A DNA stretch of 21,850 nucleotides, from IMG/VR virus record IMGVR_UViG_3300024344_001599, positions 1 through 21,850 of that record; one strand, given 5' to 3'. How positions within the stretch are numbered: position 1 is the first letter of the stretch; each line of letters opens with the position of its first letter. Shown here in pieces: positions 8,160-18,804 of the stretch. Both the position numbers and the translations under genes were made by a program. The DNA comes from a virus. A model generated the notes under the pieces. The model saw only the letters and a program-made list of their open reading frames with translations, had not been told where the DNA came from and searched no databases.

Positions 8160-8539
8160 ATAGATGGGAGTTTTTTAGTGAACAAGAATTGTCATGTAGA
8201 GGAACAGATGAATGTGAAATGAATGAAGAGTTCATGGAAAAGCTTGTAAGATTAAGAAAGAAATTTAATAAACCAATGATTATAAGTTCTGGTTTTAGAA
8301 GTCAAGCTCATAACAGTGCAATCAATGGGGCAAGACACTCCCCTCATTTATTGGGAAGAGCTGTAGATATTTTATGTCATGGAAAAGATGCTTATACATT
8401 GGTAAGACTAGCTATAGATAATGGTATGACAGGTATTGGAGTTCAACAACGAGGCGATTATGAAAGTCGCTTTATTCATGTAGATGATATAGTTAAAAGT
8501 AAAGTCCACCATCGGCCTTGGATATGGTCTTATAAATGA
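8156..8539 (+). CDS. Endolysin, M15A-type D-Ala-D-Ala / L-Ala-D-Glu peptidase
   Basis: A 127-residue zinc peptidase predicted to cut peptidoglycan cross-links or stems at lysis. The peptidase M15A signature SxHxxGxAxD is intact at residues 62-71 (SPHLLGRAVD), giving Zn ligands His64 and Asp71. The third ligand, His108, lies in FIHVDD with Asp110. The GFRSQAHN segment before the first motif is also typical. It is a single-domain protein with no signal peptide or separate wall-binding domain, so it needs a holin or equivalent for export. It is translationally coupled on both sides: ATGA with the membrane protein upstream (8156-8159) and ATGA with the IscA-like gene downstream (8536-8539). Which bond is cut cannot be told from the sequence. 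Confidence 0.9.
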   Translation: MNRWEFFSEQELSCRGTDECEMNEEFMEKLVRLRKKFNKPMIISSGFRSQAHNSAINGARHSPHLLGRAVDILCHGKDAYTLVRLAIDNGMTGIGVQQRGDYESRFIHVDDIVKSKVHHRPWIWSYK

Positions 8540-8862
8540 TAGAGATAACTCCCAACGCTAATGAACATTTATCCAGTATCGTAAGTTCTTCCAAAGATTG
8601 CGAGGGTGTATTGTTGTCCGTAAGAGGAGGAGGATGTGCAGGATTTTCTTATGAATGGTCTTTGTTAGAAGAGTCCAATAATAAGGAAGAATATGAAAAA
8701 ATATCTCTGACAACTGGAACATTATTTATTGATCCTCTTGCTGTAATGTATGTATTAGGTGCTGTGGTAGATTACTCTAAAGATGTCTTTGGTGCAATAC
8801 TAAAGATTGAGAATCCTAATGCACAATCTAAGTGTGGATGTGGAGAAAGTTTTAGCGTTTAA
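8536..8862 (+). CDS. IscA/ErpA/HesB-like A-type Fe-S cluster carrier
   Basis: A 108-residue protein with the three cysteines of A-type carriers: Cys34 in RGGGCAGFSY, then Cys100-Gly-Cys102 in the C-terminal CGCGESF motif. Family members bind a [2Fe-2S] or [4Fe-4S] cluster and hand it to apo-enzymes. Its length equals bacterial IscA (about 107 aa), so it is complete and likely functional. It is the last gene of the late, virion/lysis strand and is coupled to the endolysin by ATGA overlap, an unexpected place for a metabolic helper. A possible phage client is the Cys-rich Cas4-like exonuclease at 17327. Its stop overlaps the stop of the convergent small terminase by four bases. Confidence 0.9.
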   Translation: MIEITPNANEHLSSIVSSSKDCEGVLLSVRGGGCAGFSYEWSLLEESNNKEEYEKISLTTGTLFIDPLAVMYVLGAVVDYSKDVFGAILKIENPNAQSKCGCGESFSV

Positions 8863-9801: not shown

Positions 9802-12081
9802 TTAATCTCCTATATTAAGTAGTTCTTGATAGGTTTGTTTTTGCTGTGCTTTTGATTTGTTCCATAACGCAGCAACTAAAGTGTTTTCTCCATGAAAGGA
9901 GAGATCCATATCTACATCATCTCTTTCAAATATCTTTTCGCAATCCTGTGCCATAGCCAACAGTTCTCCTGTAGTCCAGAAGGGTTGGTCATCCACAGAA
10001 ACTTGCATAAACTTTGGAGCACCCTCTTCACCAAAAGCAGACTTATCTTTTTTAGAAGGTTCATCAACATTACAATCAAAACCAAACAGATGAAATCTTC
10101 TAAAGCCTAGAGTGTGCATGATACCTATCGTTCTCATAGCTGCACAGGTTCCTCCTGTAATAAGAGTTGCACCTTCTTTTATTCCTAAATCTTTTTCTAC
10201 AATAAGTTTAGCAGGTTTTCCTGTACTCTGTCCTTTTTTGTGTTCATCAAGATTCTTTTGAAGAGCTTGAGTATAAGCATGCCATCCAATAATTTTAGCC
10301 TTACGCTGAAGCAAGTAACGAGTAACAGAAGGTTCAGTCATGGAGGCAACAAAGAATAATGTATCTTTATCAAACTTTTTAAAGAGACTCTTTCTTACAA
10401 TACCATGTGTACTTTTTCCTGTAATGGGGCGAGGATCAAGAATAGTACATCCCCAAGGTTGAAATCCATTCTCTACAAGATGGGGGAGAGAATGTTTAAC
10501 ACACATAATACGTGCCTTTATTCCTAGTTTTTCTTCTTCTTTTATTATCTCACGTAATTTATTCCAATCAGTGCTTGGTCCTCCAGAGACTATGATGCCT
10601 ACATCTTTAGTATTCTTTGCTTTGTCTACCCAATGTGTAGAGTGTATGAGTTTCATATTTTCTTTTACGTTCCCCATAATATCTTCTTTTTCTACACAGT
10701 CTTTAGGATTAACAATAATAGGAACTTGCAAAAGTTCTTTAGGTAAAGCGTCTATATCTCCTGAATTAATAATAACTGCTATATGACATCTACCTCCTCC
10801 TGTTACATCATCCTCTGAAGGAAGAATGTATTTCTTTGTTGCTTCAAACTTTTCTAAAGTTTTTGCAGGAGCTAAGTATTTTTCATTAGGTAATTTTTTA
10901 TCTTTATCAGGAGTAAATACTTTATCTAATACACAAAGGGGAGAGTGGCTAAGTTTTTCAAAGGCTGTATTAAAATCTTCTGGTTCATCAAACCCACCTA
11001 TGAATGTATAGTCTGCATCCTTAACCAGCTCTTCATCAATCTCTCCTTTTATAAAAGAAAAGTTAAACTCTAATCCTTTACTCTTTCTATCTTCTTTATA
11101 AGAATTGAAAAGAGCATTAGCTTTATTATAATTAACAGATTTAAAATCATTAAATAAAATATAAGTTACAGATTTATTTTTTTCAAAAGCTTTAGTACAA
11201 CTTCCTATTGCTCTTTGACTATCCCACTCTCCTACTTCTACAATTTTTTGTGGAGCACAGTATTGTATAATCTCACCTAATTTTTTGTATCGTAGATTAC
11301 TACGTGCATCAGGACTACCATATTCAGAGTGCTTCTTTTCTCCTTTCTGGTGAATCATAATATCTCCCAAGAAAGAAGAATCAAAAGCTTGAGGACCACT
11401 TAAATGACTTACAATAGTATCTAAATGCCCTGTGAGATCCACTACTTTTAACCCATGAGCTTTATAAATATTAATAAGACGAGAGATAACAAAGCCATCA
11501 TGCCACTCTCTGTAAGTGGTTACTTCTCCAGACATATAAAACCCTCGTAAATCTCCTAACAAATCAAGAGGTGGTCTAAAGTTTAAATTAAAAGCCATGA
11601 AAGAAGTTTCTGCAAACTCAAAGTTTTTTCTATCCATATAAACAAATTCTGCTTTAGGATTAAGATGAGGAATAAAATGTTTATCTGAAACAGGTTTGAT
11701 TGTATAAGTATCAGCGTCTAACCATATCAACCACCCTGCACGTTTCGATTCCTCTGCCATTTCAAATGCTAGTTCTGTAAGACCAAACACTTTATGACAA
11801 AACTTTACAGCATCTACTCTCCAGTTATAGGGAACTTTACCTCCCATTGTACCGTCATGATCTTTGTGTTCGTTTCTAAAATCATGAAGGTCTTGAATTT
11901 CATTTAGATTTCTATAAGTAATATTATCACTAACAGGATAATCATAATCTGCTATATTAAAATCGTGATAAAAAGCTGTGAGGTGAAGTCCTTCTCCCCA
12001 ATTTTCTTTAACGCTTTCTAACATCTTTCTTGCATAGGTTGCATAACCGTCTTCAGAAAACGTAGTAATAAAATTTAACAT
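9802..12081 (-). CDS. Three-part fusion: glycosyltransferase + methyltransferase-like + DUF115 domain
   Basis: A 759-residue protein. Residues 1-255 are a GT-A glycosyltransferase with the metal/nucleotide-sugar motif D122-A-D124 in WLIWLDAD. Residues 264-468 match the phage's own stand-alone methyltransferase (16657-17340) along the whole length, but the SAM loop reads EVGEWDSQRA instead of EVGCWNGEHG and the DGGH motif has become GGFD, so this domain is probably inactive in methyl transfer. Residues 493-735 look like DUF115/MptE-like, with GIIVSGGPS at 495-503; relatives act in flagellin or surface glycan modification. The start is coupled to the upstream glycosyltransferase by TAATG, with GAGGTGAT before the ATG. 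The role is probably sugar modification of the virion, host surface or phage components; substrates are unknown. Confidence 0.75.
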   Translation of the reverse strand: MLNFITTFSEDGYATYARKMLESVKENWGEGLHLTAFYHDFNIADYDYPVSDNITYRNLNEIQDLHDFRNEHKDHDGTMGGKVPYNWRVDAVKFCHKVFGLTELAFEMAEESKRAGWLIWLDADTYTIKPVSDKHFIPHLNPKAEFVYMDRKNFEFAETSFMAFNLNFRPPLDLLGDLRGFYMSGEVTTYREWHDGFVISRLINIYKAHGLKVVDLTGHLDTIVSHLSGPQAFDSSFLGDIMIHQKGEKKHSEYGSPDARSNLRYKKLGEIIQYCAPQKIVEVGEWDSQRAIGSCTKAFEKNKSVTYILFNDFKSVNYNKANALFNSYKEDRKSKGLEFNFSFIKGEIDEELVKDADYTFIGGFDEPEDFNTAFEKLSHSPLCVLDKVFTPDKDKKLPNEKYLAPAKTLEKFEATKKYILPSEDDVTGGGRCHIAVIINSGDIDALPKELLQVPIIVNPKDCVEKEDIMGNVKENMKLIHSTHWVDKAKNTKDVGIIVSGGPSTDWNKLREIIKEEEKLGIKARIMCVKHSLPHLVENGFQPWGCTILDPRPITGKSTHGIVRKSLFKKFDKDTLFFVASMTEPSVTRYLLQRKAKIIGWHAYTQALQKNLDEHKKGQSTGKPAKLIVEKDLGIKEGATLITGGTCAAMRTIGIMHTLGFRRFHLFGFDCNVDEPSKKDKSAFGEEGAPKFMQVSVDDQPFWTTGELLAMAQDCEKIFERDDVDMDLSFHGENTLVAALWNKSKAQQKQTYQELLNIGD

Positions 12082-12866
12082 TAACTCATCACCTCTTCCA
12101 TTTGTATTTCTTTAAATAGTTGACTCCACTCATCTACATAAGTTTTTTCAATATCCCTTTTAACTTTCCAGTTTTCAAAAGCAGGACCACCTGTAGTAAA
12201 GTGAACATTACAGGGTTCGATTGTTTCTGCTGAGTGTCCATCTAACCAGTTCCATTCAGGAGCTATTTTTCCAATAGGATTCCTACTATGATTACGCCAA
12301 TCAAGCCACTTAAAATTATGAAGCCACCAACCTGTTTTAGTATTAACATCTCCTACTGTTAGTTCTTTATGTGCTTTATGTTCACAATTCCATAGCATAA
12401 AACTTGACCAGTTCTTTTTAGAATAAGACTCTTGTAATTTATTATCCATCTTTACAGCATCTTTGGGAACATAATCATGGTGAACACACCATAAAGGTGT
12501 ATCACTATCTTTTTTTGCTGCATCAAAAACTTCTTTTAGGTCTGCTCTAATAAACATATCACAATCCATATAGAGAGCATAACCTTCATATTGATTAAGC
12601 ATGGGAACAAGAAATCTAGTGAAACTAAAATCAGTTGAGAAAGGTTTTTTATCAACGTAATCAAACCTTTGAAGATCATAGTTGACTCCCTCTTCAACAT
12701 GAAATCCTCTCCAATACAGACCCATCATCCTTAGTTTATCTTCGTATAATGGAACTATATTATATGTTTCTGTGGTATTTCTTTTAATAGATTCTACAAG
12801 AACATCAAAGTATATTTTTTCCTTCTTATCATATCCTATGTAGATAGTATCTAATCTTTGATTCAT
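12081..12866 (-). CDS. GT-A family glycosyltransferase
   Basis: A 261-residue cytoplasmic enzyme predicted to move a sugar from a nucleotide-sugar donor. The N-terminus DTIYIGYDKKE, the DxD motif at Asp101-Cys-Asp103 (LYMDCDMFI) and the late His in HFTTGGPAFENW (about residues 222-233), a third metal ligand in such enzymes, are all in place. This is the GT8-like layout, complete at the usual length. It overlaps the zinc-ribbon gene by ATGA at 12863-12866 and the fusion gene by one base, so the three are a tight translational unit. AGAGGA lies 7-8 bases before the ATG. The acceptor is unknown; working together with the fusion's own glycosyltransferase and DUF115 domain is likely. Confidence 0.82.
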   Translation of the reverse strand: MNQRLDTIYIGYDKKEKIYFDVLVESIKRNTTETYNIVPLYEDKLRMMGLYWRGFHVEEGVNYDLQRFDYVDKKPFSTDFSFTRFLVPMLNQYEGYALYMDCDMFIRADLKEVFDAAKKDSDTPLWCVHHDYVPKDAVKMDNKLQESYSKKNWSSFMLWNCEHKAHKELTVGDVNTKTGWWLHNFKWLDWRNHSRNPIGKIAPEWNWLDGHSAETIEPCNVHFTTGGPAFENWKVKRDIEKTYVDEWSQLFKEIQMEEVMS

Positions 12867-13054: not shown

Positions 13055-13076
13055 CTCTAATTCCTATATAAAGAAA

Positions 13077-13105
13077 GGGGTGAGGATGGAGCTAACCCCC
13101 ACCCC
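13077..13105 (-). terminator. Intrinsic terminator after hsp20
   Basis: On the minus strand GGGGTGGGGG pairs with TCCTCACCCC across a 9-base loop (10 bp including two G-U pairs), and is followed at once by TTTCTTT. It lies 11 bases after the hsp20 stop. The plus-strand transcript would have A-C mismatches and no U-tract, so the signal is specific to leftward transcription. Downstream genes in the same direction begin only 22 bases later, so it is probably leaky. Confidence 0.72.
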
Positions 13106-13116
13106 CTCTAAAAGCT

Positions 13117-13563
13117 TTAGCTGTTGTTAATGGGGATCAGCTTCGGCTTTTGTTCCTCTGGAATTGCTACATTAATATTAATTTCTAATAACCCATTTTT
13201 TAACGCAGCTTGAGTAACTTCGGCAGCTTCAACAAGAGGAAAAACTTTTCTAAATTTTCGTGTGGCTATACCCTTAAACACATACTCACCGTCAGTAAGT
13301 GAGTCTCCTGTGATTGTCAGGATATTTTCTTTTTGCTCTACAGTAATTTCTTCTTCTTTAAATCCTGCCACAGCTAAGATTATTTTCCAATTAACATCTG
13401 ATGTTTTAACAATGTCATGGGGAGGATAGTTACTCTCAAAAAAAGCATCAGATTCTATACCATTTAGCATGGTATTAACCATACGATCAAAACCAATCGA
13501 ATGTTTCCAGTATCCCTTCCAAAACTCAGGACTAATTCTGTTACTAGACATAAGCATATTCAT
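13117..13563 (-). CDS. hsp20: Small heat shock protein, Hsp20 / alpha-crystallin family
   Basis: A 148-residue holdase chaperone of the IbpA type, predicted to keep unfolding proteins soluble during infection or virion assembly. Visible marks are a GFDRMV segment (residues 24-29), YPPHDI (46-51), AVAGFKEEEI (64-73), the alpha-crystallin domain signature AALKNGLLEI (119-128) and a C-terminal IPI anchor (143-145) of the I-x-I type used in oligomerisation. It is full length. AAAGGAG stands 7 bases before the ATG at 13563. It has its own promoter-like element at 13620-13649, a switch-like leader and a terminator right after it, so it appears to be transcribed as a single-gene unit within the leftward block. 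Confidence 0.92.
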   Translation of the reverse strand: MNMLMSSNRISPEFWKGYWKHSIGFDRMVNTMLNGIESDAFFESNYPPHDIVKTSDVNWKIILAVAGFKEEEITVEQKENILTITGDSLTDGEYVFKGIATRKFRKVFPLVEAAEVTQAALKNGLLEININVAIPEEQKPKLIPINNS

Positions 13564-13565
13564 AA

Positions 13566-13614
13566 TATTTCTCCTTTGTTAGCGAGTTATTTAGGAGTCC
13601 AAAATAGGCACTCC
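13566..13614 (-). promoter_or_regulatory. hsp20 mRNA leader with two competing hairpins (possible RNA thermometer)
   Basis: In the minus-strand leader, GGAGU-g-CC pairs with GG-ACUCC around a UAUUUU loop (13594-13614), leaving the Shine-Dalgarno free. The same CUCCU can instead pair with AGGAG of the Shine-Dalgarno, extended by UAUUU with AAAUA, making a bulged 10-bp stem (13566-13606) that hides the ribosome site. The two folds exclude each other. Leaders of bacterial small heat shock genes often hide the Shine-Dalgarno in imperfect helices that melt with heat; this is by analogy only. Confidence 0.5.
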
Positions 13615-13619
13615 ATTAC

Positions 13620-13649
13620 AAGTGTCTCATAGTCTTACTTTCTAGTCAA
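13620..13649 (-). promoter_or_regulatory. Promoter of hsp20, copy 1 of a conserved phage promoter
   Basis: On the minus strand TTGACT, 12 bases, then TATGAGACACTT; this equals TTGACT-N17-GACACT if read as -35/-10. An A-rich stretch sits just upstream (13651-13664), like an UP element. The same arrangement with identical spacing is found before ssb at 18775-18804. The leader to the ATG is about 56 bases. The -35 fits sigma70; the poor -10 leaves open a phage RNA polymerase or an activator. Confidence 0.7.
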
Positions 13650-13657
13650 GTATTTTT

Positions 13658-15592
13658 TTAAATATCTACAATCTCACACACTCCTGCGGTGCAAGCTAAC
13701 TGCTGTGTTCCTTTTGTTGTATCTTCTTTCTCCCACTCTGGAAGCTTAGACCAATCAATATTTGTAGGAAATTTAGCAGCATATTTTTCATATTCTTTCT
13801 TTGCTATATCTTGATATGGTGCTTGTTTATAACTGTGGTCACTGTGGGGAAGGAAGGATACTCCTGATAGATAGTTGAAGTTATCCCAACACCATGAACC
13901 TACACCCACCCACTCATGTTCTCTTACAGAGATGGTGACAGAGGGTTTATGTTCACACCATTTTTCTGCATACATTTTCCACAACTCAAGCTGTTGGATA
14001 GCCCCTTGATCGTTTCTATGTATAGCATTTTCAGGAGACTTCATAGGAAATGAAAATACTACGGTGCTGTCAGGTCGCATCTGGTCAGGTTCATGAGGTA
14101 TATTAGAAGCCATCATAAACTGCGTAAGAGGATCTTTAATATCTCCACGCACTGTTCTTATATAATATGGGGAGTGTCTTGCATGAATACCAGAGGCACT
14201 GTCTACTAACTGACTCACTGTTCCAGAAGGTTTAACACAAGTAACTGCAGTAGATTGAGGTATATTTAATTTAGAAGACCATTCTTTATTTGTTTCTATT
14301 GAATAATCTTTAAGAGAAGTAAGTAAAGTTTCTAGTTTTACTTCATTATTATAAGTTCCATTAAGAAGTTTACAGTCCATGATACCTGTAAGTGATACAC
14401 CTAGAAGTCTTTCTTCTTCTGTATTGGTTTGCCACCTCTTTCTCAGGTAGCCGAACTTTGTCATGGTAGCTTGGATAGTTCCTAAAATGGTAGCCATTCT
14501 AATTTTCTTTTTAAGTGTTGCTCTGGTATCGTCTACCCTGCACACAACCTCTGTTAGGTTACAAAACTGATTAGGGCGAAGAATAATTTCAGAGCAAGGA
14601 TTAGTTCCAAAGTCAATTTCCCATTCCCTTCTTCCATTACTTTTAGATTTAAGTTGAGCAGATTGTCTGTTAAACATCCCTCTCTCACCTGATTTACTTT
14701 CATAAAGAGAAGACCATTCCTTCATGAAGGTAGCTGTATCTGGTGGATCTGTATAGACAGCAGAGTTATTAGCCAGTGATCTTTCTGGATTCGTTTCCCA
14801 CCACTGTCCTTTCTTTGCTGATCTTAGTCTATCATCTGAAACATTAGAAAGAGATATCAAGGCAGACCTTCTTACTCCACCAACAACTACCACTTCACCT
14901 GTCTTACAAACAATATCATGACACTCTAATGAAGTAAGTTTTCTACCCTTTGCTTGTTTAAATTTGTTGATTGTAAAATTAAATAATTCTTTAAGAGGAT
15001 CTGGACCTGACGCTCTTCCTCCAAAGACATGAAGCCTAGAACCTGCTGGTCTTACCTTATCCATATTAATTTGAGGAACTCTTCCTGAATACAAATAAGA
15101 TATTAAATCTTTAAATGCTCTAGCCCACCCTTCTTTAGAATCAGCCACACTAATTACATCATCAGTCTCTTCCATTTCTGTATAAGGAATGGTTGGTAGA
15201 TTATTTACATACTGTCTTTCTACAGAGAATCCTACCCCTGTTCCATTCATAAGAATATACAGCACTTCATCAAAAGATCGAGGACTATCTATAGGTATAT
15301 AAGAACAATTATATCCTGCAATATTTTCTCTTTCTAATGCTGGTCCTGCAGCCATCATAGCTCTCATGCTAGGCATAACTTCTAAAGCATATATACTTCT
15401 GTAAAGTTCGTTCCATATTTCACTATCTTCTTCAGATAATTTAATTTCAAGATTATCTTCTATATGATATTTAAAATAGTTTATAAGTCTTGAAATAGTT
15501 TCTTCCCAAGTTTCTCTACGGTTGTCTTCTTCAAGCCAACGAGAATACCTAGAAAGGTGTATGAAGGTTTGGTAATCTGAGGGTAGTGCCAT
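13658..15592 (-). CDS. nrdJ: Class II (adenosylcobalamin-dependent) ribonucleotide reductase
   Basis: Makes deoxynucleotides from ribonucleotides for phage DNA synthesis, using a B12-derived radical and needing no second subunit or oxygen. I chose the ATG at 15592 (644 aa) because AAAGGAGCAAAGGAGCAAGAC directly precedes it; an in-frame ATG at 15637 overlaps the upstream gene and lacks such a site. With this start: RYSRWL near the N-terminus, Cys96 (GYNC), GTGVGFSVE (117-125), the NPCSE loop with thiyl Cys333 and Glu335, partner Cys344, and a C-terminal Cys634-x4-Cys639 pair for re-reduction. The layout matches the monomeric Lactobacillus-type enzyme. The stop lies 8 bases before the hsp20 promoter. 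No thioredoxin is seen in the window. Confidence 0.93.
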   Translation of the reverse strand: MALPSDYQTFIHLSRYSRWLEEDNRRETWEETISRLINYFKYHIEDNLEIKLSEEDSEIWNELYRSIYALEVMPSMRAMMAAGPALERENIAGYNCSYIPIDSPRSFDEVLYILMNGTGVGFSVERQYVNNLPTIPYTEMEETDDVISVADSKEGWARAFKDLISYLYSGRVPQINMDKVRPAGSRLHVFGGRASGPDPLKELFNFTINKFKQAKGRKLTSLECHDIVCKTGEVVVVGGVRRSALISLSNVSDDRLRSAKKGQWWETNPERSLANNSAVYTDPPDTATFMKEWSSLYESKSGERGMFNRQSAQLKSKSNGRREWEIDFGTNPCSEIILRPNQFCNLTEVVCRVDDTRATLKKKIRMATILGTIQATMTKFGYLRKRWQTNTEEERLLGVSLTGIMDCKLLNGTYNNEVKLETLLTSLKDYSIETNKEWSSKLNIPQSTAVTCVKPSGTVSQLVDSASGIHARHSPYYIRTVRGDIKDPLTQFMMASNIPHEPDQMRPDSTVVFSFPMKSPENAIHRNDQGAIQQLELWKMYAEKWCEHKPSVTISVREHEWVGVGSWCWDNFNYLSGVSFLPHSDHSYKQAPYQDIAKKEYEKYAAKFPTNIDWSKLPEWEKEDTTKGTQQLACTAGVCEIVDI

Positions 15593-15611
15593 GTCTTGCT
15601 CCTTTGCTCCT

Positions 15612-15926
15612 TTAAGTTTTATTTTCCCCATAAACAAGTTCTAAAATTAATTCAGCATAGTGTATTACTTTCTTTATATCTGCTGATCCTTCACCTTTCG
15701 TTTTATGTCTTGTAATATACTTTACAATATTTCCTTCTAAAAAATCAAGATTGTTCTTCACGATATATTCTACAGGTTGAACTGCACACTCTTTGTAGTG
15801 TGTTCCATCAACTTGTTTAGAGAGTGGGTTCTTAGACATTTCTCTTTGTTTCCTTTCTTCTTTCATGTATCTCACACAATAATCATCCCAAGATTCATAC
15901 TGTTTTCTCTCAAGAAAGTAGTGCAT
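15612..15926 (-). CDS. DUF3310 protein
   Basis: A 104-residue protein whose C-terminal two thirds match DUF3310, a small family common in phages. The signature DGTHYK, then AVQPVEYIVKNNLDFLEGNIVKYITRH and a helix ending HYAELILEL, is clear from about residue 40. Members are sometimes called nucleotide-kinase-like, but the function is unknown. The charged N-terminal 30 residues are not part of the domain; Met30 is an alternative start. I keep 15926 because AAGGA stands 9 bases upstream. It overlaps the previous gene by 17 bases and ends 19 bases before the chosen RNR start. Placement beside RNR fits a nucleotide-metabolism link, which is inference. Confidence 0.82.
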   Translation of the reverse strand: MHYFLERKQYESWDDYCVRYMKEERKQREMSKNPLSKQVDGTHYKECAVQPVEYIVKNNLDFLEGNIVKYITRHKTKGEGSADIKKVIHYAELILELVYGENKT

Positions 15927-16299
15927 TTATTCTTTTCCTTATAAAAGTTACTTCTTTAGATCGTAATATCTTATGAGCAAAGCCTCGTGTATAGGAAGGA
16001 TCAAGTCCAGCCATATCACAAACATATTCAAAATCTGAAGTAGATGCAGTTACCGAAGTAAAGAACCATGAATAAGCTTGGTTTTTTACTAGGTGAGCTT
16101 CGCCAGCAGAACAGGTGGCAGTAGGATAGTAAGGGTGAGTGGCATCTAAGAGAGCTTGTAAAACAACTGCAAGATATAGATTTCTTTCTGACTCCCCTTC
16201 TTTCATAGTTTGTCTAAATTGAAATATCTCATAGTTAATATCTACAGACCAATCATAAATGGTTTCTGTTTTTTCTTTTTTTTCTCGATCTTTTGCCAT
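15910..16299 (-). CDS. Conserved hypothetical phage protein
   Basis: A 129-residue soluble protein I do not recognise firmly. The N-terminus is Lys/Glu-rich. The middle is helical (ERNLYLAVVLQALLDA), followed by AYSWFFTS, then DFEYVCDMAGLDPSYTRGFAHKIL, and a basic C-terminus. A Trp-Phe segment followed by F-x2-VC-x2-AGLDP-x2-R recurs in small phage and prophage proteins and looks like a helical, possibly nucleic-acid-binding fold. The first 47 bases overlap the end of the endonuclease gene, and the Shine-Dalgarno is weak, so the exact start is uncertain. It sits among replication and nucleotide genes. Confidence 0.65.
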   Translation of the reverse strand: MAKDREKKEKTETIYDWSVDINYEIFQFRQTMKEGESERNLYLAVVLQALLDATHPYYPTATCSAGEAHLVKNQAYSWFFTSVTASTSDFEYVCDMAGLDPSYTRGFAHKILRSKEVTFIRKRINALLS

Positions 16300-16660
16300 T
16301 TAACCACTCTTGAGGAATACCATCTTTTCTCCTGCAATATAAGAATCCATGTTTTTCACACCATTTTGCATAGGTCATCTTCCCATTTTTATACAGCTTG
16401 GAGTTAGGATTGTCAAACACAAACCGTATATCAAGGTCTTTTTTTTGCTCTTGAATAAACAAATGTTTCTTTCTATCTTCTAAAACAAATCTACCTTTTA
16501 CTTCTAAAATAATTCCATTAGGTAATAAAAAATCAGGAGTATAGGTTTTGTATTCTTTCCATACATAATCTACTTTAGATTCTTCATACCGAATAGGTAT
16601 GCCTGATTCCTTTAGGAAATCACATACGATCTCTTCAGACTTAGACCTGAAGCGTATCAT
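16253..16660 (-). CDS. T7 gp3-like endonuclease I (Holliday junction resolvase)
   Basis: A 135-residue PD-(D/E)XK nuclease that in T7 cuts branched DNA and helps degrade host DNA. The alignment to T7 gp3 from memory is clear: FRSKSEEIV ~ FRSGLEDKV, YEESKVDYV ~ YEEWKVPYV, YTPDFLLPNGI identical, LEVKGRF ~ VETKGLW, DRKKHLFIQEQ ~ DRKKHLLIREQ, and CEKHGF near the end. Catalytic residues are present: Glu9, Glu26/27, Asp43, Glu53 and Lys55 (equivalent to T7 Glu20, Glu35, Asp55, Glu65, Lys67). It is slightly shorter than T7 gp3 (149 aa) and ends in a basic KRSRKKRKNRN tail. ATGA overlaps the methyltransferase stop at 16657-16660. Confidence 0.93.
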   Translation of the reverse strand: MIRFRSKSEEIVCDFLKESGIPIRYEESKVDYVWKEYKTYTPDFLLPNGIILEVKGRFVLEDRKKHLFIQEQKKDLDIRFVFDNPNSKLYKNGKMTYAKWCEKHGFLYCRRKDGIPQEWLNGKRSRKKRKNRNHL

Positions 16661-17340
16661 TTTTGTATGTCTTCTCTGGAAGAAATGATTAAGGGAACAA
16701 GTAATGTATCTTTATTGTGGGGAGGTTTCCCTTCATTAACCACGATTGCAAGATGCGTAATCCCTCCCTCACGTACAGGATCACTTGAAGGGAGTATCCA
16801 TTTTGCTTTATCTATTATGTTATCTACCACTACATTCGTTCCTAAGTAGGGAGCATCTGGAATATTTTCTTTATGATCGTGAGTAAAGTAATCATCAAAA
16901 ACTATAACCTTAGATGTTATAGATTTAGCATAATCGTTTTGAACTGTAGCTATGGAATGACCACCATCAAGGAACGCAAAATCTACAGAGTGATCTTCCA
17001 TTACCTTATTCGTATCTCCCTTTATTAATTCATAAGTAAATCTATGATTATATCTTTCTTTTAAAACAGAAAATTTATCAGACACTTGAGATATAAACTG
17101 TCTTGATTTACTATTTAATTCTTTTTTATCTAACTGAGAATCTCCTTCTTCAAATAAATCATACCCTATATAATGAACAGAGGAGTTGTGGGAATGTAAG
17201 GCTGCTTCTGCCATCTGAACTCCATGTTCTCCATTCCAACACCCCACCTCTAACAGTGTAGAGGGTTTATAGAATCTTACCAATTCCATTAATTGAAAAT
17301 ATCTAAGAGGTGGAATGTTAATGTTCCTAGTTTCTTTCAT
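16657..17340 (-). CDS. Class I SAM-dependent methyltransferase (Methyltransf_24-like)
   Basis: A 227-residue enzyme with an intact Rossmann core: motif I LLEVGCWNGEHG (residues 29-40), an acidic second strand YIGYDLFEEG (58-66), and FLDGGHSIATVQND (123-136) with the DGGH metal or catalytic site seen in sugar O-methyltransferases and cephalosporin-hydroxylase relatives. A C-terminal extension (WILPSSDPVREGGITHLAIVVN and on) is shared with the middle domain of the 759-aa fusion, so the two are paralogues. That link suggests a sugar or glycan target rather than DNA. GAGGT lies 8 bases before the ATG. It overlaps the exonuclease gene by 14 bases and the endonuclease by 4. Confidence 0.85.
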   Translation of the reverse strand: MKETRNINIPPLRYFQLMELVRFYKPSTLLEVGCWNGEHGVQMAEAALHSHNSSVHYIGYDLFEEGDSQLDKKELNSKSRQFISQVSDKFSVLKERYNHRFTYELIKGDTNKVMEDHSVDFAFLDGGHSIATVQNDYAKSITSKVIVFDDYFTHDHKENIPDAPYLGTNVVVDNIIDKAKWILPSSDPVREGGITHLAIVVNEGKPPHNKDTLLVPLIISSREDIQK

Positions 17341-18196
17341 AAGGATTTACCTCTTCAATGTTAGGTTCTTTAGAAACGTGAGTAAAGAATTTCGGACCGT
17401 TTGCATAGTTGAACTGGCGTAACCCTTTACCGTTATTAGCATCAGACCAACAGTGTAACTTATATACACAATAAACACACCCAAAGTCCAAACGCCTGTT
17501 GCCAGAGCTACCGTCAGGAATATCATCGTAACATCTAGGGGGTGGCGTATCTCTCTCCACCACATTTTTAACTTTCTTAATCTTCTGCGAGACATCAGGC
17601 ATCTCCATTTCATGTAAATGTGCAACAGCAATCTCACCTGTTTGTTTATTAATAACAACCCATGCTGCAGCTTTATCTTTTTTATCTTGAGCATACGCTG
17701 TTAGTTGATGAATATATCCAAAAGGATCTTTCTTACTTAACTCATTAATATTAAACTTATTAAAAGAAAAATTAGATGCACTTTTAAAATCAACTAAGAC
17801 TCCATCTACTCTAGCATCTTGGTGTCCTTTGACTCCACTCACACTTAATTCTTTTTGTGATTCTGTTACGGTATGTCCTGACAGTTCAGAAAAAGCAATT
17901 AAAAGTTCTTCAAGAATATTACCATATAAAAATTTAATATATGTAGGACCATCTAATTCTTCTCCTTGAATACCTTTGGAGGAATACCAAATCTGTCTGA
18001 GGGGTTTTCCTATCTGAGATAATCTTAGTGAAGTTCTAAGTTTTCTTTCTTCATACACCGCATTAAATAAATGCTGTCCAATATTTTTTCCTACTCTCTC
18101 ACATATTTCTTTTGCTTGTGTTTGATGAACAACAACTCCTTCATTGGAAGTAAATAAAGAATAGATATCTTGAACTAATGATGTAATTTTTTTCAT
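17327..18196 (-). CDS. Cas4/RecB-like PD-(D/E)XK exonuclease with Fe-S cysteines
   Basis: A 289-residue nuclease predicted to resect DNA for recombination or host DNA breakdown, the job of gp6 in T7. Motifs in order: LYGNILEELL with Glu96/97, GHQDARVDG with Asp127, VDFKSA with Asp136-x-Lys138, and QLTAY (Gln164, Tyr168), the RecB-family motif. Cys222, Cys240, Cys243 and Cys249 could hold a [4Fe-4S] cluster as in Cas4/AddB, though the first Cys is nearer to the others than in Cas4. No Shine-Dalgarno precedes the ATG; a strong hairpin ends 7 bases upstream and holds an in-frame TAG (18212-18214), which fixes the ATG as the first possible start. It is not a CRISPR gene here: no array or other cas genes are seen. 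Confidence 0.85.
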   Translation of the reverse strand: MKKITSLVQDIYSLFTSNEGVVVHQTQAKEICERVGKNIGQHLFNAVYEERKLRTSLRLSQIGKPLRQIWYSSKGIQGEELDGPTYIKFLYGNILEELLIAFSELSGHTVTESQKELSVSGVKGHQDARVDGVLVDFKSASNFSFNKFNINELSKKDPFGYIHQLTAYAQDKKDKAAAWVVINKQTGEIAVAHLHEMEMPDVSQKIKKVKNVVERDTPPPRCYDDIPDGSSGNRRLDFGCVYCVYKLHCWSDANNGKGLRQFNYANGPKFFTHVSKEPNIEEVNPYERN

Positions 18197-18203
18197 AATA
18201 TAG

Positions 18204-18237
18204 GTAGGGGGCTAACATTCTTATGCCAACCCCCTAC
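18204..18237 (-). terminator. Strong 15-bp hairpin after ssb, abutting the exonuclease start
   Basis: On the minus strand GTAGGGGGTTGGCAT pairs with ATGTTAGCCCCCTAC around an AAGA tetraloop; the outer 8 bp are perfect and three G-U pairs sit inside. In the plus-strand transcript those become A-C mismatches, so the fold is built for leftward RNA. No U-tract follows; the exonuclease ATG is 7 bases on. It may be a leaky terminator, a 3' stabiliser for ssb mRNA or a processing site that also limits exonuclease translation. Confidence 0.6.
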
Positions 18238-18252
18238 ATACTCCTTTCTTAA

Positions 18253-18726
18253 TTAGGAAGCAGCAGCAAATGGAATGTCTTCACCACTATTATTAGTATA
18301 TCCTTCTTCTACAGCAAACTCTGAGTTACCGTTAGGATTATACTCTATCAATTCAAGAACTTGAACGGAGTTCAAACCAGCAGAAAAGCCAGACTTGTTA
18401 CCGAAAGTCCACTCAAAAGGTCTGTAGGAAACATTGACCTTTGAACCATTACCTACAAGAACATCTTTCATAGGATTAAGTTTTGCGTCTACAACTTTAG
18501 GAGGATCATTAACCATTCCATCCTTACGCTTGACTTTCATTTTGGCAGTAATAAAGTTTCCACGATCATCACCTACGTTCTTGACCGTCAACTGGTCAGT
18601 CTCAACAATGGCAATATTTTCTTCATCGAGCTGACAGATATCAATGGTGTAAACACCATCACTATCAAAAGTAGTATTGGGTGCAGTTATTGAAGCCCAA
18701 TAAGCAGTTCCGTTTATAACACTCAT
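18253..18726 (-). CDS. ssb: Single-stranded DNA-binding protein (T7 gp2.5-like)
   Basis: A 157-residue protein predicted to coat ssDNA and recruit polymerase and helicase. Beta-rich sequence (NGTAYWASI, YTIDICQL, FITAKMKVKR, SKVNVSYRPFEWTFGNKSGFSAGLNSVQVLELI) fits an OB fold, and the C-terminal tail is acidic and ends GEDIPFAAAS, close to the DIPF tip that SSBs use to bind partners. It lies between the DNA polymerase and exonuclease genes, as expected for a T7-type replication block. AAGGAG precedes the ATG by 10 bases. It has its own promoter (18775-18804) and a hairpin after the stop, suggesting extra expression suited to a protein needed in large amounts. The family call rests on the tail, fold pattern and context. 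Confidence 0.82.
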   Translation of the reverse strand: MSVINGTAYWASITAPNTTFDSDGVYTIDICQLDEENIAIVETDQLTVKNVGDDRGNFITAKMKVKRKDGMVNDPPKVVDAKLNPMKDVLVGNGSKVNVSYRPFEWTFGNKSGFSAGLNSVQVLELIEYNPNGNSEFAVEEGYTNNSGEDIPFAAAS

Positions 18727-18774
18727 AGTAATCTTACTCCTTACAGTTATTTTACATATTACGGTTAATGGTGG

Positions 18775-18804
18775 AAGTGTCTCATATCTTAGACTCTAAG
18801 TCAA
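18775..18804 (-). promoter_or_regulatory. Promoter of ssb, copy 2 of a conserved phage promoter
   Basis: On the minus strand TTGACT, 12 bases, then TATGAGACACTT, with spacing identical to the hsp20 copy at 13620-13649. The 12-base middle is also partly alike. A 13-base palindrome CTTAGACTCTAAG (plus strand, 18788-18800) lies inside, and a 16-bp palindrome overlaps the upstream edge. The leader to the ssb ATG is about 48 bases. Confidence 0.7.

Follow-up and report, generated by a model that had tools for sequence, protein, structure and literature searches.

Small heat shock genes are classical targets of ROSE-type RNA thermometers. In Pseudomonas, the short ROSE-like leaders of ibpA (55–62 nt) are proven thermometers, and consist of a hairpin I and a hairpin II in which U(U/C)GCU pairs with the Shine-Dalgarno (SD) sequence around a bulged G (PMC3669281). 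Phage mRNA leaders for which temperature sensing has been proposed or shown include those of lambda cIII, SPbeta blyA (fourU) and a gut-phage σ70 gene (fourU), and the 2024 paper that added the last of these regarded the blyA leader as no more than the second phage RNA thermometer known (PMC11182007). ROSE elements in phages were not described in the open-access literature searched, and the cyanophage small heat shock protein literature examined does not mention a thermometer. To our knowledge, no ROSE-type thermometer element has been described in viruses.

The DNA analysed here (the window) comes from an uncultured phage and, like its nearest relatives, is a genome fragment, 21.85 kb long. 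Named phages gave no near DNA match to the window; at the protein level the closest are the Pelagibacter phages HTVC103P, HTVC104P and HTVC115P (DNA polymerase 45%, ssb 40–47%), which also have an hsp20 gene with the RNA element described below, but which differ from the window in gene order and are at a much lower level of identity. Beside the endolysin gene, a 108-aa ORF at 8536–8862(+) resembles an A-type iron-sulphur carrier (IscA/ErpA, with the CGCG motif) and matches PHROG 17776, a family without assigned function. The leftward block also encodes large putative glycosyltransferase-like proteins and a methyltransferase-like protein (9802–12866(−) and 16657–17340(−)), with weak or no PHROG matches.

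We consider it probable (about 75%) that ssb and hsp20 in this phage are single-gene units transcribed from host σ70 promoters, and that the hsp20 leader is a ROSE-like thermometer. The features are listed in Table 1.

Table 1. Promoters, genes and RNA structures at the ssb and hsp20 loci of the window
Feature	Position	Strand	Details
ssb promoter	18776..18804	-	−35 TTGACT 18799-18804; extended −10 TATGA 18782-18786; −10 GACACT 18776-18781
ssb predicted +1	about 18769	-	Predicted from promoter
ssb, gp2.5-like ssDNA-binding protein	18253..18726	-	PHROG 112, E 4e-15
3′ hairpin after ssb	18204..18237	-	15 pairs, weak U tract; may terminate transcription or protect the 3′ end
hsp20 promoter	13621..13649	-	−35 TTGACT 13644-13649; TATGA 13627-13631; −10 GACACT 13621-13626
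hsp20 predicted +1	13614	-	First base of hairpin I, seven bases past the −10
ROSE-like RNA element, 54 nt	13561..13614	-	Predicted +1 through start codon; R1 60.9 bits (own sequence in seed)
Hairpin I	13594..13614	-	GGAGU-[G]-CC-UAUUUU-GG-ACUCC, bulged G
Hairpin II	13571..13586	-	CUC[G]CU pairs with SD AAGGAG (13571-13576), bulged G
hsp20, small heat shock protein	13117..13563	-	PHROG 432, E 1.4e-33
3′ hairpin after hsp20	13074..13108	-	Fold prediction

A repeated promoter upstream of ssb and hsp20

The first-pass annotation had reported a sequence occurring twice with identical spacing, and TTGACT-N12-TATGAGACACTT is indeed present in exactly two copies on the minus strand of the window, at 13620–13649(−) upstream of hsp20 and at 18775–18804(−) upstream of ssb. 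Two copies were reached in 0/100 shuffles (mean 0.06), and a third copy, which the annotation had also failed to find, was absent from the window at up to three mismatches. The motif ends 56 nt (hsp20) and 48 nt (ssb) before the ATG, in line with the leaders of about 50 bases noted earlier. The gap holding the ssb-side site follows the DNA polymerase gene, and the gap holding the hsp20-side site follows the ribonucleotide reductase gene. Within the leftward block, the two copies are the only minus-strand TTGAC-N16-18-xAxxxT sites with a TG extension, and one further TG-bearing site of this kind in the window, at 1109–1138(−), is located antisense within a rightward gene. The intergenic placement and the conservation of the slot in relatives uphold the earlier proposal of a promoter sited only before ssb and hsp20 in the window.

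Relatives were retrieved via the polymerase, hsp20 and ssb, giving 70 distinct ssb upstream regions. The scan of related phages that the first-pass annotation had proposed found TTGAC-N16-18-xAxxxT before ssb in 65/70 distinct relatives (2.8 in shuffles), mostly with a spacing of 17, and before hsp20 in 27/70 (2.1 in shuffles). At one slot, 17 bp from TTGACA, the relatives have the hexamers GACACT, GACATT, GACAAT, GATAAT, TATACT or TATAAT, which supports the original alignment of GACACT as a −10 box behind a 17-bp spacer. A TG extension accompanies 29/30 weak −10 boxes versus 30/44 strong ones (Fisher p = 0.003, uncorrected for the kinship of the sequences), and this near-constant presence of TG beside a weak −10 is behaviour of a σ70-like promoter. 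A generic σ70 scanner overlooked both sites, as GACACT agrees with TATAAT at only 3/6 positions. The site has in common with bacterial σ70 extended −10 promoters a TTGACA-like −35 (TTGAC[A/T]), a 17-bp spacer (within the 16–18 bp range), TG one base before the −10 (TGN), A-11 and T-7, but differs in its non-consensus GACACT, which is fixed as TATGAGACA in the window's phage group. Judged by its sequence, the repeated site is a σ70 extended −10 promoter of the ordinary host type; σ70 would be used at both sites in vivo, with ssb and hsp20 transcripts predicted to start as given in Table 1.

The weak −10 had earlier been taken as a possible sign of a phage polymerase or a phage-encoded activator, and TATGAGACA recurs unchanged at both promoters in the same genome, as well as in many relatives, a uniformity greater than a loose σ70 site requires. 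We nevertheless find this explanation very unlikely, since consensus TATAAT or TATACT replaces the weak hexamer at the same slot and spacing in relatives, with TG compensating for the weak box, and the N12 is unconserved, which counts against a T7-type promoter. Furthermore, no T7-like RNA polymerase gene was found in the complete genomes of HTVC103P and HTVC115P, in a search where the positive control HTVC019P did give a signal, the window itself being a fragment whose genome may encode a factor of this kind elsewhere. Given the −10 variants in relatives and the polymerase-less complete genomes, a phage-polymerase promoter is not the explanation we favour. An exact-motif scan of IMG/VR gave 12 contigs, with three matches being ssb promoters, one an hsp20 promoter, six a single coding sequence of unrelated phages, and two (L003 and L011) compatible with chance.

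The promoter pairing of ssb with hsp20 is genuine. Four contigs (62, 60, 28 and 18 kb) from another phage group each contain exactly two copies of TTGAC-N13-TGTGTCATAAT, located 60–90 bases ahead of ssb and hsp20 and nowhere else. Most other relatives have a single copy of the TATGAGACA version per fragment; many of these fragments extend to only one of the two genes. The TTGACT and the 12-mer common to both copies could suggest that one promoter was recently copied within the genome, as opposed to two sites being kept independently. This is highly improbable, as the N12 and both flanks are wholly different, and as three relatives (L166, L036 and L297) keep both places although the two −10 regions differ from each other, being other −10 versions, so that the two promoters are not always identical. 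In L004 (775–1134) and L006, a tandem promoter pair is present upstream of ssb, separated by a hairpin and a short insert, and L014 has a single promoter directly before ssb, with the spacer of the upstream copy in L004 and L006.

Both genes are followed by a hairpin. The one after ssb has z < −2 at the same place in 51/52 distinct relatives, and the one after hsp20 has z < −2 in 56/68 (mononucleotide shuffles in both cases). With these strong 3′ hairpins, each gene resembles an insulated promoter-gene-hairpin cassette, with termination uncertain because of the poor U tracts. Each σ70 promoter would then drive a one-gene unit of promoter, gene and 3′ hairpin within the leftward operon, and ssb and hsp20 would thereby receive their own dose of mRNA.

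A conserved RNA structure in the hsp20 leader

The first-pass annotation overlooked a structured, conserved RNA in the hsp20 leader. Alignment of leaders identified a two-hairpin RNA common to the hsp20 leaders of very different phages, with the consensus of hairpin I being NNNNU-[G]-CC-loop-GG-NNNNN, followed by CUYGCU opposite AAGGAG around a bulged G. The signature of U(U/C)GCU and AGGA with the bulged G is present in nearly all leaders. In the whole structure 97.4% of cells are paired (50–60% in slid controls), with two-sided changes in 10/13 pairs and a covariation of 0.512 versus 0.189 when shuffled, while hairpin I has 98.9% of cells paired and 6/7 pairs changed on both sides, and helix 2 has 95.8% of cells paired; all these figures are biased in favour of the structure, as the alignment was fitted to it.

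The class of promoter varies between σ70 and T4-late (TATAAATA), while the leader stays. In the other phages with σ70 promoters the gap that precedes the stem is mostly 3–9 bases, and in those with T4-late TATAAATA promoters the same leader follows directly. In L114 (2908–2948) and L296–L299 (near 1504), hairpin I (GGAAUGCCAUAAUGGGUUCC) is kept and the UUGCU anti-SD strand is lost, and hairpin I thus seems to have a function of its own there.

Relationship to ROSE elements

A covariance model (R1) was built from nine phage hsp20 leaders only, since hairpin I came out misaligned when all 40 leaders were aligned with MAFFT. Of the 77 matches that R1 gave in 842 kb, 74 lay at hsp20 and the other three were copies of one weak match; polymerase loci (720 kb) gave two matches, again both at hsp20. 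No genome had more than one match. In about 1.5 Mb of phage DNA altogether, T4-late phages included, matches fell almost only on hsp20 leaders. A weak second element in L126–L128 lacks UUGCU and was taken as chance.

In the window, UCGCU opposes AGGAG with a bulged G between, as in a ROSE-like hairpin II, it is preceded by a 5′ hairpin, and the hsp20 start at 13563 places the element in the leader of a small heat shock gene. The best Rfam matches of the window's leader are ROSE_2 (E 0.013, 21.9 bits against a gathering score of 65) and ROSE_3 (E 0.17, 17.4 against 43 bits), both below the gathering score. The leader of L107 scores 43.5 bits with ROSE_3, above the gathering score of 43, and Rfam ROSE matches were also obtained for the leaders of L109 (39.4 bits, E 1.2e-4), L036 (33.6 bits, E 0.003) and the cultured phage Melnitz (34.1 bits, E 4.6e-4). 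As a guard against circularity, the L107 group was left out of a further model (R2), which still recovered the L107 leader (E 2e-7, E-values of R1 and R2 being rough because of a short calibration). A search with RF02523 of six bacterial genomes gave no match, and its controls were silent as well.

The record of 'Pseudomonas phage Y7' (L305, OQ572409.1, unverified) contains an ibpA-like leader that matches R1 (rough E 7e-6) and Rfam ROSE_3 (69 bits). The gene behind this leader is very probably a host ibpA with its thermometer, and the record may be bacterial DNA filed as phage. A match to a manganese riboswitch was found near an Alteromonas hsp20 (L257, 5234–5387), below cut-off (E 8.5e-5).

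The hsp20 leaders thus carry, by computation, a conserved and covarying RNA element related to ROSE. Like the Pseudomonas ibpA thermometers, which have the same two hairpins, this element precedes a small heat shock gene and has ROSE_3 (RF02523) as best Rfam model. The phage leaders differ in being phage-encoded, AT-rich and driven by σ70 extended −10 or T4-late promoters; most of them score under the Rfam cut-off, and thermosensing by them is inferred.

Proposed temperature control of hsp20

The predicted hsp20 transcript begins with the first base of hairpin I, which would make its leader a two-hairpin ROSE-like element of the short kind. In the cold, CUCGCU would pair with the SD sequence around the bulged G and limit translation, and warming would open hairpin II, allowing Hsp20 to be made. 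ViennaRNA curves of SD opening at 5–50°C did not tell the hsp20 and ssb leaders apart. The helix in the window has a C-G pair where P. putida ibpA has U-G, and is thus the counterpart of the U38C mutation, which cut heat induction of P. putida ibpA to 1.7-fold (PMC3669281); the window's version may therefore respond weakly.

Alternatively, the leader may exert translational control or affect mRNA stability independently of temperature, for instance as an operator autoregulated by Hsp20 or as a 5′ end protector. Ocean phages meet modest temperature swings, hairpin I covaries most strongly and begins at the predicted 5′ end, and it is retained in leaders that have lost the SD hairpin, all of which would fit such a role. 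We regard this as rather unlikely, given that U(U/C)GCU and AGGA with the bulged G make up hairpin II in nearly all leaders, that the Rfam ROSE models are the best matches, and that the downstream gene is of the classical ROSE target type. Temperature control of hsp20 by its leader is the reading we favour.

Implications

Like the hsp20 element, the leaders of lambda cIII, SPbeta blyA and the gut-phage σ70 gene belong to phage mRNAs, but these are of other structural classes, precede other genes and are each found in one or a few phages, unlike the hsp20 element, which is shared by unrelated phage groups. As a promoter, the repeated site is unremarkable, if neatly paired, and the RNA element behind its hsp20 copy is the part that deserves a bench test; since the element recurs in cultured phages, among them Melnitz and HTVC103P, heat control of a phage chaperone is testable at the bench. 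The covariance model can be used to find further phage elements. A thermometer would offer a reason for maintaining hsp20 as a separate transcription unit. There is a somewhat better than even chance that marine phages generally, both the polymerase-lacking HTVC103P-like and the T4-like ones, control their small heat shock genes through a ROSE-type thermometer. If so, no viral RNA thermosensor would be more widespread, and phage protein output would be linked directly to ocean temperature.
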